A stretch of 56,727 nt of DNA from Alkalihalobacillus bogoriensis ATCC BAA-922. Its GTDB lineage: Bacteria > Bacillota > Bacilli > Bacillales > Bacillaceae_F. Under the pieces are notes generated by a model, which was not told where the DNA came from, ran no database searches, and saw only the letters and a program-made list of their open reading frames with translations. Within the stretch, counting starts at the first letter, position 1. Every line of letters starts with the position of its first letter. The stretch is taken from positions 1 to 56,727 of the forward strand of contig NZ_KK211279.1 in the NCBI RefSeq assembly GCF_000621445.1, written 5' to 3'. Below are positions 3,780 through 56,333 of this stretch, piece after piece. Both the position numbers and the translations under genes were made by a program.

Positions 3780-4246
3780 TAAGCAACTACGGATTCCACA
3801 ACAGAAATATGAATTTCAATATCCCCAATTGGACTTTGATGAGGAATCGAAATAAAGGTTTGTTTTGAACGAAATTGTGATTCTCCATCATTAACAATAG
3901 GAGGAGTAACATCAATGATACATTCTTCTTTAGATAATTCAGTCGCGGTTGTACCGGCCACCCAATTTCCAAATTCTTGAACAGCACTCCAACCCATTTC
4001 ATCTAAAGTTGTAATTTCCATGCCACCCATCATAATTCCGACTAATTTTTGAGCTGTATCTTTTGAAAATGAACAAATAATTTGTCCACTTAATTGCCCC
4101 TTTACTCCTAATAATACTGAAACTTGATTTGATGATACAGACCCAATGTTCACTGTCGGTTTTTGTTGTTGTACTTCAACACCAAAATGTGATTGCAAAA
4201 TTGTTTTTGTTGCTCTACATATGGCATTTATATGGTTTGCATTCAT
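3779..4246 (-). CDS. cheX: Chemotaxis protein CheX (CheY-P phosphatase)
   Basis: 155 aa, full length for CheX. The CheC/CheX/FliY phosphatase signature ExxN is present as Glu91-Phe-Gly-Asn94 within SAVQEFGNWVAG, followed by the central and C-terminal strands ending IEIHISVVES. CheX dephosphorylates CheY-P and so resets flagellar signalling. It stands alone, away from any che/fla cluster, with its own terminator. A second protein with a CheX/CheC-like domain lies at 13417-14313. Confidence 0.9.
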   Translation of the reverse strand: MNANHINAICRATKTILQSHFGVEVQQQKPTVNIGSVSSNQVSVLLGVKGQLSGQIICSFSKDTAQKLVGIMMGGMEITTLDEMGWSAVQEFGNWVAGTTATELSKEECIIDVTPPIVNDGESQFRSKQTFISIPHQSPIGDIEIHISVVESVVA

Positions 4247-4697
4247 AGAAAAATCACCTCTGTAAGTATTTTGTTTTTTCTAAATATTACATCTCTTTTA
4301 ACGATCTAATTCTATACTACCACAAATTCTTTATTTTTTATGTTTTTTTACGAAAAAACAACAACTAAAGAACTAGGTAATACTTGTATTATCTGTTGAT
4401 ATAAAACTTTGAATTAGAAATCTTAACCTATAATGACTAGTTCCAGTTGCGTTTTCCTTATTCACTTTTTATCTAGGTCTTTAGTATATACCTTTTTTCA
4501 AATTTCGACAATGTTCTTCTTTTGTTTATAAATATGGAATTTTTCACATAAAGACCCATATCCATAATTGAAGATTGTTCATCAAGGTTTGTAAGGTTTT
4601 GTAACAGTAAATTTTTTATAGATTTTGTAAAGATGAAGGTGATTATTTGCTGATGTAGAAACTAAAAATTAAAGAACTATATTTCTGAAAGGGAGTG
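4247..4697. other. 451-bp divergent intergenic region, cheX | glgB
   Basis: AT-rich region between two divergent genes, so it should hold promoters for both. A TATAAT at 4429-4434 lacks a correctly spaced -35 box, and no convincing sigma-E type promoter (as used by the B. subtilis glg operon) was found. No repeat, riboswitch-like fold or small gene with a good ribosome site was seen. Confidence 0.5.
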
Positions 4698-6614
4698 ATG
4701 ATAATATTATCCACAACACTCATTAGTGAATTTGATTTGTTTTTATTCCACCAAGGAAACTTGTTTGAAAGCTACAATATGCTAGGCTCACACCCTTTTT
4801 CTCTAGATGGGAAACAAGGAGTACGCTTTTCTATTTGGGCTCCGCATGCCAAAAAAATATTTGTTGTCGGAGATTTTAATAATTGGAATGGTAAGCGTTA
4901 TCCAATGCATATGATAAATGAGTCTGGGGTATGGGCTTGCTTTATTCCCGATTTACCGCATGGAAGCTTGTATAAATATGAAATTCATACCGTGTCTGGC
5001 TCTATCCTTCTAAAGTCTGACCCTTTTGCTTTTTATTCAGAACTTAGACCAAACACAGCTTCAAAAGTATACGATATTAACAGCTATGTTTGGCATGATG
5101 ACTGCTGGCAAAAGCAAAAACAAAAGCAGCAGCATTTCCAAAAGCCAGTTCTTATTTATGAAGTGCATCTAGGTTCATGGAAAATTCATGCCCACGAAAC
5201 ATTTTTAAGCTATCGCGAACTTGCACAACAGCTTGTCCCCTACGTCGTAGAAATGGGATACACTCACATTGAATTGTTACCAATTACTGAACATCCTTAT
5301 GATCGTTCTTGGGGTTATCAAGCAACAGGATATTTTTCTGTCACAAGTCGTTTTGGTACCCCAGAAGACTTCATGTTTTTTATCGATACATGCCATCAGC
5401 ACAATATCGGTGTTTTTCTCGATTGGGTCCCAAGTCATTTTTGTAAAGACGACCATGGGCTTAGAATGTTTGATGGCCAACCATTATACGAATATGATGA
5501 TCCAAGAAAAGCTGAAAAACATGAATGGGGAACCTTAACCTTTGACTTTGGGAAGCCAGAAGTTGTTAGTTTTCTTATTTCAAATGCTCTATTTTGGCTT
5601 GAGAAATATCATATTGATGGGCTTCGGGTAGATGCTGTTTCTAGTATGCTTTACTTAAATTACGGTCATTCCTCAAAAGAAAAAGTTGTTAACGAATATG
5701 GAGGCGAAGAAAATTTAGAAGCCATAGAGTTTATTAAGAAATTGAATAAAACCATTTTTGCCTCATTTCCCTCAACCTTTATGATGGCAGAAGAAGCAAC
5801 AGCATGGCCACTAGTTACCTCTCCTACTTATGTTGGTGGTCTTGGATTTAATTATAAATGGAATATGGGTTGGATGAACGACATGCTTCGTTACATGGAG
5901 TTAGACCCAATTTATCGCAAATGGAATCATCACTTAATCACGTTCTCCTTTTTTTACACCTTTTCAGAAAATTTCATCTTGCCTTTATCTCATGATGAAG
6001 TTGTTCATGGGAAAAAATCGTTACTAAATAAAATGCCCGGTGATTATTGGCAAAAGTTTGCTAACCTTCGTTTATTTTTTTCTTATCTCATTGCACACCC
6101 TGGAAAAAAACTAATTTTTATGGGGGGCGAATTCGGCCAATTTGACGAGTGGAAAGACATGACTGAATTGGATTGGCAACTGCTTGACTACCCTTCTCAT
6201 AAACAAATGCATTGTTATACAAAAGCATTACATCACTTTTATCTAGCAGAACCTTCTCTTTGGGAGCTTGATCATAATCCTAATGGTTTTGAATGGGTTG
6301 ATCCTCACAATCATGAACAAAGCATTATTGCTTTTATACGAAAGGCAAACGACCAAAACGACTTTTTGCTCTTTGTTTGTAATTTCACTCCAATTGTTCG
6401 TTATGACTACCACATAGGCGTCCCAGTCGAAGGAACGTATAGCGAAGTCTTTAATAGTGATGACGAAAAGTTTGGTGGTTCCAACCAATTACATCATACA
6501 GATTTACACAGTGAACCTACCGCATGGCACAACCAGCCATACCGAATAACGATTAAAGTTCCACCTTTATCAACCGTTGTGTTTAAGTTAAAAGCTTTAG
6601 ACATAAATAACTAA
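4698..6614 (+). CDS. glgB: 1,4-alpha-glucan branching enzyme GlgB
   Basis: 638 aa from the ATG at 4698; a GTG at 4695 in the same frame sits inside the ribosome site AAAGGGAG. GH13 enzyme that makes the alpha-1,6 branches of glycogen. It has an N-terminal CBM48 module ([19 protein letters not shown]) and a catalytic barrel with GLRVDAV (nucleophile Asp), MMAEEAT (acid/base Glu) and [10 protein letters not shown] (third Asp), all intact, then a C-terminal beta domain. First gene of glgB-C-D-A-P; glgC follows after 19 bp. Confidence 0.95.
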
Positions 6615-10453: not shown

Positions 10454-12892
10454 ATGAGCGTTTTCAAAAGCAAAAAAGCATTTAAACAAGCATTAATTGA
10501 AAAAGTTGAAATGAAACTAGGAAGAGCATTTGAAGCAGCTACACCAACCGAAGTATTCCAATCTTTAGGGGACTTATTAAAAGAGCAAATGAATAAAAAT
10601 TGGATTTCTACGAATGAAACCTACATTAAGAACAGAGAAAAACAAGTATATTATTTTTCGATGGAGTTTTTATTAGGGCGTTTAGTAGAAAGTAATTTGC
10701 TAAACATGGGGGCTCTCCACATTGTAAAAGAAGGATTAGAAGAATTAGAACTTGACCCGACCGAAGTGTTTGAACAAGAGCACGATGCCGGCTTAGGAAA
10801 TGGTGGATTAGGACGATTAGCCGCTTGTTTTCTAGATTCACTCGCCTCTCTACAGTATGCTGGTCATGGATACGGGATTCGTTATAAATACGGATTATTT
10901 GAGCAAAAGATTATTGATAGTAATCAAGTCGAACTACCAGACTATTGGTTAAAAGAAGATTATGTGTGGGAAACTCGACGTTCAGATAAAACCATTGAAG
11001 TCCGGTTTGGCGGAACAGTAGAAGTCGAAGAAACCGCTTCTTCCCTTCTGTTTCATCATAAAGATTATGAAACCGTTCTAGCTGTGCCTTATGACGTGCC
11101 CATTGTAGGATATCAAAATAAAACAGTGAATACACTCCGGTTATGGAGTGCAGAAGCGATTCCAAGTGATGAGCATTTACGTCCATCTTCCTCACACGAT
11201 TATCATCACTATTTAGAATATAAACGCGCTGTCGAATCGATTTCAGAGTTTCTATATCCTGATGATTCTCATTGGGAAGGCAAACTTCTAAGAATCAAAC
11301 AACAATACTTTTTAGTGTCAGCAGGAGTTCAAAGCATTTTATCGATGTATAAGGATAAATATGAGAGTCCACTTTCACGACTGCCTGAAAAAATCTCTAT
11401 TCAAATTAACGATACACATCCTTCTTTAGTTATCCCAGAACTTATGCGGATTTTAATGGACGAAGAAGGACTCGGTTGGGAGGAAGCTTGGACAATAACA
11501 ACAAATACAGTCGCTTATACGAACCATACAACATTAAGTGAAGCATTAGAGAAATGGCCGGTAACGATGATCCAGCAATTGCTTCCACGTATATTTATGA
11601 TTATTAATGAAATTAATGAACGATTCTGTCAATCGCTTTGGTTTGACTTTCCTGACAAACGAGACCTAATCTCTGATTTGGCAGTTATTGCGCATGACCA
11701 AGTACGTATGGCTCATTTGGCCATTGTAGGAAGTTATAGTGTAAATGGTGTCGCTAAAATTCATACAGATATTTTAAAGAAAAAAGAGATGTCACATTTT
11801 TATTCTGTTTTTCCAGCAAAGTTTAATAATAAAACAAACGGAATTACTCACCGCCGGTGGCTATGTAATGCAAACCCTTCCCTTGCTGCATTAATTACCG
11901 ACGCAATAGGAAAACGCTGGATAACACAACCAAAAGAATTAATTAGTTTATTAAAGTATGCATCAGATTCTACATTTCAAGAGAAAATAGCAAAGGTAAA
12001 GATTCAAAACAAAATGAGGCTCGCTTCATTTATAAAAGAACATACAGACATTACTGTTGATGAACATTCCATTTTCGATGTTCAAATCAAACGACTCCAT
12101 GGCTATAAGCGTCAGCTTTTAAACATTTTTCACATTATCCATCTGTATCATTCATTACGTGAAAATCCGACAATGGATATTGTTCCAAGAACATTTATCT
12201 TTGGTGCAAAAGCAGCTCCAAGTTACCATTTCGCCAAGCAAGTGATTAAACTCATTGTTACAACAGCTAATATCATTAACAACGATCCGGTCATAGCTGG
12301 AAAAATAAAGATTGTATTTTTAGAAAATTACAGTGTCACTCTTGCTGAAAAAATAATTCCTGCCTCAGATATTAGTGAACAAATTTCTACTGCAAGTAAA
12401 GAAGCTTCAGGAACAGGAAATATGAAACTCATGATGAATGGCGCTCTGACACTCGGCACACTTGATGGTGCCAATATTGAAATTAAAGATATGGTTGGAC
12501 TAGACAATATTTTCATTTTTGGATTAACTGCTGACGAAGTATTATCTCACTATCTAAATGGTGATTATTCTGCACATGACATCTATCAAAATGACGTAAG
12601 AATCCAACTCATTTTAAACCAATTACATGATGGTTTCTTCTTTAAAGATGACATTGAATTTAAAGATATTTATTACTCGATTTTATCGAATAATGATGAA
12701 TTTTTCGTGTTAAAAGATTTTGATAGCTATGTCGAAACACAACAAATGGTGGAACAATGTTATCGTAACCAACCTGAATGGTTGAAAAAAAGTATTACAA
12801 ATATCGCACACTCTGGTAAGTTTTCGAGTGACCGAACGATTTCTGAATACGCCACTAGAATATGGGGTATTAGACCTATAAAAATTAAATAA
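10454..12892 (+). CDS. glgP: Glycogen phosphorylase GlgP (GT35)
   Basis: 812 aa. Pyridoxal-phosphate enzyme that releases glucose-1-phosphate from glycogen or maltodextrin ends. The cofactor-lysine motif EASGTGNMKLMMNG is intact, as are the N-terminal YFSMEFLLGR and GNGGLGRLAACFLDS. The ATG at 10454 follows AAAAGGAG with good spacing, while a GTG at 10442 overlaps the ribosome site. It is the last gene of the operon. The 93-bp gap from glgA has a weak CTCG/CGAG hairpin but no clear terminator. Confidence 0.95.
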   Translation: MSVFKSKKAFKQALIEKVEMKLGRAFEAATPTEVFQSLGDLLKEQMNKNWISTNETYIKNREKQVYYFSMEFLLGRLVESNLLNMGALHIVKEGLEELELDPTEVFEQEHDAGLGNGGLGRLAACFLDSLASLQYAGHGYGIRYKYGLFEQKIIDSNQVELPDYWLKEDYVWETRRSDKTIEVRFGGTVEVEETASSLLFHHKDYETVLAVPYDVPIVGYQNKTVNTLRLWSAEAIPSDEHLRPSSSHDYHHYLEYKRAVESISEFLYPDDSHWEGKLLRIKQQYFLVSAGVQSILSMYKDKYESPLSRLPEKISIQINDTHPSLVIPELMRILMDEEGLGWEEAWTITTNTVAYTNHTTLSEALEKWPVTMIQQLLPRIFMIINEINERFCQSLWFDFPDKRDLISDLAVIAHDQVRMAHLAIVGSYSVNGVAKIHTDILKKKEMSHFYSVFPAKFNNKTNGITHRRWLCNANPSLAALITDAIGKRWITQPKELISLLKYASDSTFQEKIAKVKIQNKMRLASFIKEHTDITVDEHSIFDVQIKRLHGYKRQLLNIFHIIHLYHSLRENPTMDIVPRTFIFGAKAAPSYHFAKQVIKLIVTTANIINNDPVIAGKIKIVFLENYSVTLAEKIIPASDISEQISTASKEASGTGNMKLMMNGALTLGTLDGANIEIKDMVGLDNIFIFGLTADEVLSHYLNGDYSAHDIYQNDVRIQLILNQLHDGFFFKDDIEFKDIYYSILSNNDEFFVLKDFDSYVETQQMVEQCYRNQPEWLKKSITNIAHSGKFSSDRTISEYATRIWGIRPIKIK

Positions 12893-15240: not shown

Positions 15241-16056
15241 TTATACCAGTTCAATTTTTTGATACATTTCATATAAATCTTGAAGTGTTTCAACTATCCA
15301 TGTTGGAGATTGTCTCAACACTTGAATTTCGTCTATATAAGATGTATTTCTACTTATTAACACCGTATCGATACCGATGGCTTGCCCAACGGAGATTAGT
15401 CCTTTCACTGAATGTCCTAATAAAACCGCACCACCATGTTGCTTTTTTATAATGTTAATTAATACTTGTTGTAACCATACAGATGGTTTTCCGATATGGT
15501 CTACCTCTTTTTTTGTTGCTGTATTTTCGTGTGTTAACACTCGACCGATGGCACCGGTGTCAAAAATATTTTGATAAAACACATCACTCATAAACTCTGG
15601 ATTAATTAAAATGAGTTTCGCTCCTCTTTGTAATAATTGAAAAGAATCTTGAAGCTGTTGTTCTTCTATATGTTTTGATAAGCATAATACAACATACACT
15701 TGTCCATATGTTCTTTCCGTAGCAGAGGTTAATCGTTGGACGTTTATTTTACCAATCTCTTCAGCTAGCGTTTGAGACCCTGCGATATATACACTAATTT
15801 TTTCTGTTGTTTCTAACAAATATTCTTGAATCGCCTGAACAGGTGTAATCAATTGATGCAAAGACACCTCTAATCCTATTTGTTTCAGATGTAATTGTAA
15901 CAGTTCTTTTGAGCGATAAGGATGATGCGTAATATAAAAGATTTGTTTGTTTTTTTTACGAAGCATTCCAATGAGTTCTATTACATTTGGCAACAATTGA
16001 TCATCTTTTAGTAATGTTCCTTCTAAAAAAAAGAAAAATGATTTGTAGTCTTTCAT
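15241..16056 (-). CDS. NagD-like HAD-superfamily protein lacking catalytic aspartates (probable pseudo-phosphatase)
   Basis: 271 aa from the ATG at 16056 (GGAGGGGAAAAG upstream). The layout follows the HAD-IIA/NagD family: motif I region, Thr of motif II (YITHH), Lys of motif III (GKPSVWLQQVL) and motif IV before IGIDTVLI. Motif I reads FLEGTLLK where active enzymes have DxDGTLY, so the nucleophilic Asp is Phe and the acid/base Asp is Glu. Motif IV reads GHSVKGLISVG in place of GDRLxTDIxxG. Two catalytic sites are therefore lost, although the reading frame and fold are kept. A binding or regulatory role is likelier than phosphatase activity. Confidence 0.75.
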   Translation of the reverse strand: MKDYKSFFFFLEGTLLKDDQLLPNVIELIGMLRKKNKQIFYITHHPYRSKELLQLHLKQIGLEVSLHQLITPVQAIQEYLLETTEKISVYIAGSQTLAEEIGKINVQRLTSATERTYGQVYVVLCLSKHIEEQQLQDSFQLLQRGAKLILINPEFMSDVFYQNIFDTGAIGRVLTHENTATKKEVDHIGKPSVWLQQVLINIIKKQHGGAVLLGHSVKGLISVGQAIGIDTVLISRNTSYIDEIQVLRQSPTWIVETLQDLYEMYQKIELV

Positions 16057-54591: not shown

Positions 54592-55209
54592 TTACCATTT
54601 TAACTTGTGTATTATTTCAATGATGTTCGTTTTTTCTTTTTGTCCGATTGGCCACCGCTCAATTTCATTTTTAATCGAAGCCAGTGTTCCGAATCCTTTA
54701 ACAAATCCATTTAAACGGGCGACAACAGTCGCATCTCGAAAGTACTCTTCTGTTGGATACAATGCTGCTAATTGTTCTGTTGCTTTTTTATATTTTTTTA
54801 AATGATATTTTTGATGTTTCGTTTCAGCAAAAGTAAAAAAAGTGAGCGGCGCAATTTCTGTTTCTATAAGCATGTTCTTTTTTGCTTCCCACTCTTTTTT
54901 CTTTTCTAGCATTGTCTGTTTTTGTTGTTCATTCTCATACAGCAATAAAGAAATATACTGTCTTCCTTTATATCCCTCACGATTCGGATTATGATTGGCC
55001 CAAAACGGGTCAAGAAGAGAGGCTAACGAAATCTCTTCCTCATTAAAATGTACTTGAACCGTTTCTGTATGGTCTCCCATCATGCGATACGTAGGATTTA
55101 ATGATGTCCCGCCTGCATACCCTACAGCTGTTTTTTGTATGCCTTGAAAATGCCCGAACCGAGCATCAACACCCCAAAATCATCCCATGCCAAATGTGAA
55201 CCGTTCCAT
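54592..55209 (-). CDS. msrA: Peptide methionine sulfoxide reductase MsrA with in-frame TGA at the catalytic cysteine (candidate selenoprotein)
   Basis: 205 codons from the ATG at 55209 (GAGAGGTGA upstream) if TGA at 55182-55180 is read through. Residues 1-9 are MERFTFGMG, codon 10 is TGA, then FWGVDARFG, exactly where MsrA has GCFWG. Downstream motifs are intact: VGYAGGTS, GDHTETVQVHF and GRQYISLLLY. The rest of the protein has no Cys, so a Sec form would work without a resolving cysteine. A SECIS-like hairpin starts 12 nt after the TGA. If TGA stops, only a nonapeptide or a 163-aa fragment from 55083 without active site is made. Likely co-transcribed with nos (20 bp). Confidence 0.8.
55144..55169 (-). 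promoter_or_regulatory. Candidate bacterial SECIS element in msrA
   Basis: On the mRNA, GAUGCUC (55167-55161) pairs with GGGCAUU (55155-55149) around the loop GGUUC. UUG/CAA can extend the base of the stem with a small bulge. The loop begins 19 nt after the UGA and starts with GG, within the limits described for bacterial SECIS elements (apical loop about 16-37 nt downstream, G among its first two bases) and reminiscent of the E. coli GGUC loop. Confidence 0.5.
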
Positions 55210-55229
55210 TACGTTCACCTCTCTCCCTA

Positions 55230-56333
55230 CTATGATTTATGATATTTATTTTCTTGATAAAAAAAGTTTGGTGTGACAAGATCGTTTTTATATTCCTGAT
55301 GAAAAATATGTGTTGTTGCCGGTGACACTGGCGGAATTAACCATGTCCAATCCCCCGTGACATTTCTTCCTTTTGCCGTTTCTGCTTCCTGAAATCGTTT
55401 AAACTGATCCGCTGCCGTATGGTGGTCAACAATGCTAACACCAGCTTTTTTAAATGAATATAGGACAGCTACATTTAATTCAACTAATGCTTTATCTTTC
55501 CATAGCGTTGAATTTTTCGTTGTTTCTACACCAATAATTTTTGCAACTTCAGCTAATTTATTATAACGATCTTCATCGGCCAAATTTCTGGCTCCAATTT
55601 CAGTTCCCATATACCATCCATTAAAAGGGGCAGCTGTATACATAATACCGCCTATCTCTAGTTTCATATCTGAAATCATGGGCACCGCGTACCACTTCAA
55701 GTTTAACTTTCGAAACTCTTCGTATTCTGGATGCTCTATCCCTACTTCCAATACGAGGGCTTTTGGAACATCAAACCATACCGGTGGCTTGTCCTCTAGT
55801 TGAATAACGAGCGGTAAAATATCAAAAGGTGTCTGTCCCCCTCTCCAACCTAGCTCATGACAAACTGTCGTGAATTCAATCGAAGCAGGATCTCCTATAA
55901 TGCCTGCACTTGTTTCATATCCAGCATATCGAATTAACTGATGATTCCATATTCGAACCTTTTCCTTTCCATTTTGCTTAGGCGCAAAAATTGTAATCGT
56001 TGGAATGAGCCTGCCTCCATTTGACGCATATTCAATATGTTCACATAATGCCTTATACACTTCTTCAGTAGTATTTGCATCTCTTGCATCAATGACATGC
56101 AAGGAATTCCAAAATAAACGACCAATACATTTATTACTATTTCTCCACGCCAGCTTTGCTCCATAATGTAATTCTTCTAATGTATGGGTATAAAATCCCT
56201 TCTTATTTATTTCCCATTTTATTTCATCAAGTCGAGCAGGAATTTTTTTTTCTAGCTGAAGCTCTTCATAACATAATTCTATAAATTGACTAGCTTCACT
56301 TAGTAACTGATTGTTTAAAACCAATGAGTTCAC
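55230..56333 (-). CDS. nos: Nitric oxide synthase, oxygenase domain only
   Basis: 367 aa, normal for bacterial NOS, which lacks the reductase domain. It oxidises L-arginine to citrulline and NO using cellular reductases. The haem-thiolate ligand is Cys69 in [13 protein letters not shown], and the substrate Glu is Glu245 in [11 protein letters not shown]. The pterin-site region [17 protein letters not shown] is intact. In Bacillus NO made by NOS protects against oxidative stress and antibiotics. The next gene, msrA, starts 20 bp after the stop. Confidence 0.96.

Follow-up and report, generated by a model that had tools for sequence, protein, structure and literature searches.

A probable selenocysteine-containing methionine sulfoxide reductase A in Alkalihalobacillus bogoriensis and its recurrence in Bacillaceae-type bacteria

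A gene for methionine sulfoxide reductase A (msrA) in Alkalihalobacillus bogoriensis ATCC BAA-922 carries a TGA triplet where the codon for the catalytic residue is expected. Does this triplet encode selenocysteine (Sec), or does it mark a gene that has been lost? The gene lies in the window, by which we mean the whole stretch of 56,727 nucleotides of contig NZ_KK211279.1 that was analyzed, and its coding frame, read through the TGA, occupies positions 54592..55209 of the minus strand. From an ATG at 55209, nine codons (MERFTFGMG) lead to the TGA at 55182-55180 (55180..55182, minus strand), after which 195 open codons continue to a TAA at 54594-54592. A ribosome-binding sequence, GGGAGAGAGGTG, was recognized by eye ahead of the ATG at 55216..55227 (minus strand). 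The TGA, codon 10, takes the place of the catalytic cysteine in the motif GCFWG, and the translated product begins MERFTFGMGUFWG. The resulting protein has 205 residues with one Sec and no cysteine, divided into a catalytic domain (approximately residues 1-140) and a C-terminal helical domain (approximately 141-205). The catalytic domain matches PF01625 at E 3e-37, passing the cut-off, and the frame scores 114.3 bits against TIGR00401 (cut-off 108.1). The initial annotation had described this start, its good ribosome site and the TGA at the catalytic position, as well as an intact frame of 195 codons beyond it, and reading the frame and the two family models confirmed these points. It had weighed Sec and mutation as about equally likely; the genome and homolog tests presented here favor Sec.

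The same codon was compared in 397 genomes drawn evenly from a larger group within the order, a sample in which distant MsrA members may be missing. Short ordinary MsrAs (L023 and L024) were excluded before counting. This left 58 long-MsrA loci among the matches listed, and codon 10 could be read in 57 of them, L078 being left out. The catalytic codon among these 57 listed genes is TGA in 48, TGT in five and TGC in four, so the alignment of homologs shows that relatives largely retain the triplet. All three genomes of the genus that were compared have TGA, the other two (G006 and G005) at 88% and 50% identity to the window gene. Beyond the genus it occurs at the same codon in 45 further genomes, at identities down to about 37%. 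In another genus of the same family, represented by four genomes, two had only an ordinary short cysteine MsrA at E 1e-20, and the remaining two had nothing at that threshold, with weaker matches of which the best among those listed was about E 2e-18. The remark that a Sec-containing MsrA is not typical of Bacillaceae needs softening, given that at least 48 of the 397 genomes sampled within the order carry one.

An error of sequencing or assembly at the A of the TGA would be one explanation of the triplet. Its presence in the other two genomes of the genus makes such an error very unlikely and, with the 45 further genomes, a mistake repeated in 47 other assemblies has practically no probability; we rejected it on this ground. 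A nonsense mutation is another candidate, leaving msrA as a young pseudogene whose product ends after nine residues. Decay does seem to have affected four relatives from other genera: an additional in-frame TAA interrupts L029, and L074, L076 and L078 are split between frames. Such decay in genomes that have selA suggests that the putative Sec-MsrA is being lost there. The window gene itself differs from this picture, since comparison with its relative in G006 gives a dN/dS of 0.23 over the 195 codons after the TGA, indicating purifying selection. Retention of this TGA at codon 10 by 48 of 57 genes, even at about 37% identity, and the conserved stem-loop described below also speak against a pseudogene, which we therefore rejected as highly improbable.

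Translation might instead begin downstream, at an ATG at 55083 that opens a frame of 163 residues; the product would then lack the active site and serve a different function. That open reading frame exists, but the first 42 residues that it would discard hold 13 of the 30 invariant columns in an alignment of 20 rows, and the cysteine relatives read straight through them. Given these upstream columns and uninterrupted relatives, a downstream start was rejected, and we assign it very little probability.

Decoding of UGA as Sec requires its own genes, and the initial annotation had left the presence of selA, selB, selC and selD to be determined. All four are present in the same genome (G000; 5.0 Mb in 51 contigs, completeness 100), which has the complete bacterial Sec-decoding trait. 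On contig C1, selA (3967-5328, 574 bits) and selB (10963-12825, 368 bits) both score over their cut-offs, and the gene for tRNA-Sec, selC, lies at 15287-15379 and scores 60.5 bits (gathering score 47); ARAGORN also calls it tRNA-SeC with anticodon tca. The selD gene is located between selA and selB on the opposite strand (L008:5782-6834 on C1) and has an in-frame TGA of its own at L008:5833-5835, in the context MNNEQPIRLTAMSTKAG-U-GCKIG. Reading through this TGA gives 410 bits against TIGR00476 (cut-off 125), and for this reason the selenophosphate synthetase SelD of this genome is probably a selenoprotein as well. A three-gene ABC transporter of phosphonate type is also found between selA and selB (L008:7522-9948 on C1), with PhnC and PhnE over their cut-offs. 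Its binding protein reaches 158 bits against TIGR04553, a model for a putative selenate transporter, which is below the cut-off of 250; this match makes a role in selenium uptake conceivable.

Other selenoproteins were sought in the same genome. Formate dehydrogenase is the most widespread bacterial selenoprotein (PMC5029168). Five matches to this family and three glutaredoxin-like matches, the latter from a search by family for a selenoprotein glutaredoxin, were found in the genome, and none has an internal stop. A search with R1, our model of the MsrA SECIS element, returned msrA as its only convincing match (E 2.7e-12), the next four having E values of 0.62 to 9.2. Around these four weak matches no TGA was found within a long open frame on either strand: the frame closes within 41 codons after each of the eight TGAs nearby, and the longest run preceding one is 61 codons (L172), followed by only 8. 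The R1 model therefore reveals no further selenoprotein in this genome, and selD was found through its own gene.

Across the relatives the Sec-decoding genes follow the codon. While selA occurs in 181 of the 397 genomes, it is present in all 48 genomes with the TGA form and in none of the nine with a cysteine form (Fisher p 1.1e-10, a value that is not corrected for relatedness). tRNA-Sec was found in exactly the same 48 of the 57 genomes searched and in none of the nine cysteine genomes; the filters used were stricter, so that weak matches may be lost, and the controls behaved as expected, Escherichia coli being positive and Bacillus subtilis negative. G075 and G137 have two tRNA-Sec genes each. 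These patterns bear on whether UGA might specify an ordinary amino acid, through codon reassignment or plain read-through without SelB. A scarcity of TGA stops could point in this direction, as TGA ends only two of the 34 open stretches of at least 200 codons in the window; however, it does end those two. The strict match with selA and tRNA-Sec, together with a hairpin that is absent from the cysteine genes, implicates the Sec machinery instead, so reassignment was rejected and appears extremely doubtful to us.

Bacterial SECIS elements are conserved stem-loops that closely follow the UGA and have a G in the loop at their tip. A hairpin of eight pairs follows the msrA TGA at 55149..55167 on the minus strand, with its GGTTC tip at 55160-55156. 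Counted from the T of the TGA, columns 16-23 pair with columns 27-34; the stem starts 12 nt past the UGA and 19 nt separate the UGA from the tip, both distances being inside the range of bacterial SECIS elements. The tip begins with GG or AG in 47 of the 48 TGA genes. In the single sequence the hairpin is only mildly better than chance; it becomes conspicuous only when the 48 TGA genes are aligned. Folding the window sequence alone gave z scores of -1.39 over 66 nt (21 of 200 shuffles as good) and -2.01 over 44 nt (11 of 200).

The alignment statistics were computed for the 46 distinct rows among the 48 TGA genes. Paired cells make up 93.5% of the stem compared to 87.9% in shuffles, two-sided changes occupy 23 cells compared to 7.4, and the covariation score is 0.350 compared to 0.247; for each of these three measures none of 500 shuffles was as high. 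The number of pairs with a two-sided change and the number of further pair types were not above the shuffles in the TGA genes (173 and 206 of 500 as high, respectively). Sliding the partner strand by one to three columns lowers pairing to 27.7-47.8%, and the slide of +3, although it gives three pairs and 15 cells with two-sided change, has only 33.4% of its cells paired. RNAalifold recovers the inner six pairs unaided. The same columns of the nine cysteine genes are paired in 47.2% of cells, no more than in their own shuffles.

The hairpin overlies coding sequence, and the peptide beneath it differs between the two groups: it is mostly DARFGH, DARFGY or DAQFGx in TGA genes and DARFGA, DANFGQ or others in cysteine genes. 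Loss of the stem in the cysteine genes goes in part along with these protein changes. L034 is the one cysteine gene that has the peptide DARFGH, as do 13 TGA genes, yet its stem is broken through synonymous codons. The TGA genes keep the stem closed despite differences in codons and even in amino acids, as in ATGCCC/GGGCAT of L036 and ATGGCC/GGTCAT of L059. The hairpin with a GGUUC tip that had been proposed to fit SECIS rules persists in the TGA genes, where changes are compensated, and is not retained in the cysteine genes; by these comparisons it has the features of a SECIS stem-loop and is a putative SelB-binding element. Taken at the sequence level, the TGA of msrA is almost certainly a selenocysteine codon and not a mutation. 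A conserved catalytic UGA, a covarying stem-loop and a full set of Sec genes in the genome lead us to conclude, with very high confidence, that this msrA encodes a functional selenoprotein methionine-S-sulfoxide reductase A of the type with a single Sec.

The closest solved structures found by phmmer are those of the MsrA of Clostridium (Alkaliphilus) oremlandii, or CoMsrA (PDB 4lwj, 4lwk, 4lwl, 4lwm and 4u66), with 4lwj matching residues 5-204 at E 8.4e-44, whereas ordinary MsrAs match the window protein only to approximately residue 140. An AlphaFold model built on an alignment of 26 sequences has a pLDDT of 92.7 and places five helices at residues 141-202, a region with values of 90-96 by block; a weaker block comprises residues 71-80 (mean pLDDT 66). 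A Foldseek search with this model returned the C. oremlandii structures first (4lwl: TM 0.89, E 3.6e-23, 202 columns, 37% identity); ordinary MsrAs ranked far below them. PF20939, the helical domain of selenoprotein MsrA, scores 20.5 bits, under its cut-off of 23.7. The C-terminal helical domain is recognizable from phmmer coverage, the helices of the model and the Foldseek alignment, with PF20939 alone under its cut-off. Judged from these matches and the model, the predicted protein is a full-length relative of the crystallized C. oremlandii selenoprotein, including the C-terminal helical domain.

CoMsrA has 209 residues with one Sec and no cysteine (PMC4333827). The window protein, with 205, likewise has its single Sec at G(U)FWG, and both have the extra helical domain and share a fold (predicted TM 0.87-0.89, 37-38% identity in Foldseek alignments). 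Removal of the helical domain almost abolishes the activity of CoMsrA, and its Sec form is 20-fold more active than its Cys form (PMC4333827). Dimer formation via the catalytic residue has also been described (PMC4479559). With ordinary MsrA and MsrAB proteins of E. coli and others the window protein shares the PF01625 catalytic domain; those proteins have a catalytic cysteine and many of them a resolving cysteine (PMC4479559). The long cysteine MsrAs of Domibacillus, Paenibacillus, Planococcus and haloarchaea belong to the same family as the window protein. Most of the Bacilli rows match as far as approximately residue 205, and those of haloarchaea as far as approximately 172-189. They have TGC or TGT where the window gene has TGA, and the hairpin is not kept in the nine counted.

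By analogy with established biology, SelB would bind the stem-loop and deliver Sec-tRNA-Sec to the UGA, and the ribosome would continue for 195 codons. In the finished enzyme, Sec10 would attack the sulfoxide of methionine-S-sulfoxide and be converted to a selenenic acid. The window MsrA has no cysteine, hence no resolving cysteine, and no second Sec; an internal bond could not form, so an outside thiol would be needed to reset the enzyme, as glutaredoxin does for CoMsrA. The CoMsrA enzyme is reset by glutaredoxin and not thioredoxin (PMC4333827), in the authors' model together with glutathione (PMC4479559). The hosts differ: that of CoMsrA is a strict anaerobe, while the genome studied here is of Bacillaceae type and contains the bacillithiol-synthesis gene bshC and two bacilliredoxin-family proteins in addition to the three glutaredoxin-like matches. 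From this gene content, the likeliest reductant is perhaps a bacillithiol/bacilliredoxin system or a glutaredoxin-like protein. The cysteine content of the relatives varies. When the 48 TGA frames, including three broken ones, were followed to their next stop, 18 proved to be without cysteine, 23 had one, six had two and one had three. Cys50, adjoining the conserved Glu49, is present in 21 of the 48, and it might be a resolving residue in the species that have it.

The upstream neighbor of msrA is a gene for the oxygenase of bacterial nitric oxide synthase (55230..56333, minus strand; PF02898 E 3.6e-173), which ends 20 nt ahead of msrA, and the two genes possibly share one transcript. Frames of at least 70 codons were surveyed in the flanks of the 57 loci, approximately 1.5 kb to either side. 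The same gene order occurs in G006, with a gap of 29 nt, and is absent from the other 55 loci; no neighbor is common to more than 11 of the 57. One speculative and rather unlikely proposal is that selenium-based methionine repair in Bacillaceae-type bacteria runs on bacillithiol and bacilliredoxin, not on glutathione and glutaredoxin, and that the genus studied here transcribes the enzyme's gene together with that of nitric oxide synthase, so that the enzyme answers nitrosative or oxidative stress of the cell's own making. Elsewhere a gene for MsrAB is found close by: in G005 it lies 16 nt upstream of msrA, and in G313 it lies 27 nt downstream. In G134 an MsrAB-like frame directly follows Sec-MsrA (L030, 2109-3074, plus strand). 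Both of its halves score over the family cut-offs (TIGR00401 and TIGR00357), and its MsrA half has arginine (CGA) in place of the catalytic cysteine (AGGRSWY). The MsrA function of this protein may have passed to the Sec enzyme in G134.

A wider scan of contigs used two peptide patterns, one of which contained the catalytic cysteine so that Sec genes entered only via the other; its best 80 loci, among which records of the genome studied here may be missing, are described here and do not amount to a census. Among them, TGA forms also occur in clostridia, Chloroflexota, Acidobacteriota, Planctomycetota, Verrucomicrobiota, Synergistota, Spirochaetota and others, mostly in metagenome bins, and cysteine forms in Paenibacillus, in Planococcus and its kin, and in haloarchaea. 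Cysteine forms related to this MsrA family in haloarchaea and one Thermoplasmata bin (L101, L107, L110, L111, L115, L127, L132, L134, L137 and L138) suggest transfer between domains. MsrA rows of five genomes are identical to records of Domibacillus, Salibacterium, Salsuginibacillus (two species) and Gottfriedia; the three of these genera whose family was looked up are Bacillaceae.

A tree of the quick kind was built from 109 rows, with L029, L074, L076 and L079 (short or broken) and all of L140-L159 left out and five duplicates merged. It is unrooted, and 49 of its 106 inner branches are drawn open. The Sec/Cys label requires at least six changes on this tree, of which the starred branches force two, and none of 500 shuffles was as low. 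The window gene and its G006 relative stand beside a cysteine group of another family (SH-aLRT 96), and in Bacilli cysteine groups are nested among Sec rows. This nesting would suit an exchange of Sec for Cys with loss of the machinery. As judged from codons, gene content and tree, the candidate Sec-MsrA is recurrent among Bacillaceae-type bacteria, and exchanges between Sec and Cys have happened several times, in step with the presence or absence of the Sec machinery.

Sec-containing MsrA is known "in certain bacteria" (PMC13188914), and the family is listed in PMC9312934. A count from 2006 gave three selenoproteins of three families for Bacillales (PMC1794560), and the words MsrA and sulfoxide are absent from the main text of a 2016 survey covering over 5200 organisms (PMC5029168). 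MsrA genes of two Bacillus strains were listed in 2024 as related to selenoproteins, on the basis of annotation, and the accessible part of that paper names no in-frame TGA (PMC11076775). The accessible portions of these sources and of PMC11944866 make no mention of Sec-MsrA in Bacilli. In the literature searched, largely the main texts of open papers, no in-frame TGA was described for an MsrA gene of Bacilli. The kind of enzyme is already known; its breadth in Bacillaceae-type bacteria is apparently unreported. Annotation that takes TGA only as a stop would give a nine-residue product or move the start downstream, and a recurrent repair enzyme of these bacteria is easily missed for this reason. 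Repeated exchanges between Sec and Cys that track the Sec machinery provide a natural series for asking how a single enzyme benefits from Sec. Lacking a resolving cysteine and coming from a host with bacillithiol-pathway genes, the protein also offers a concrete test case for the thiol system that resets selenoenzymes in Bacilli.
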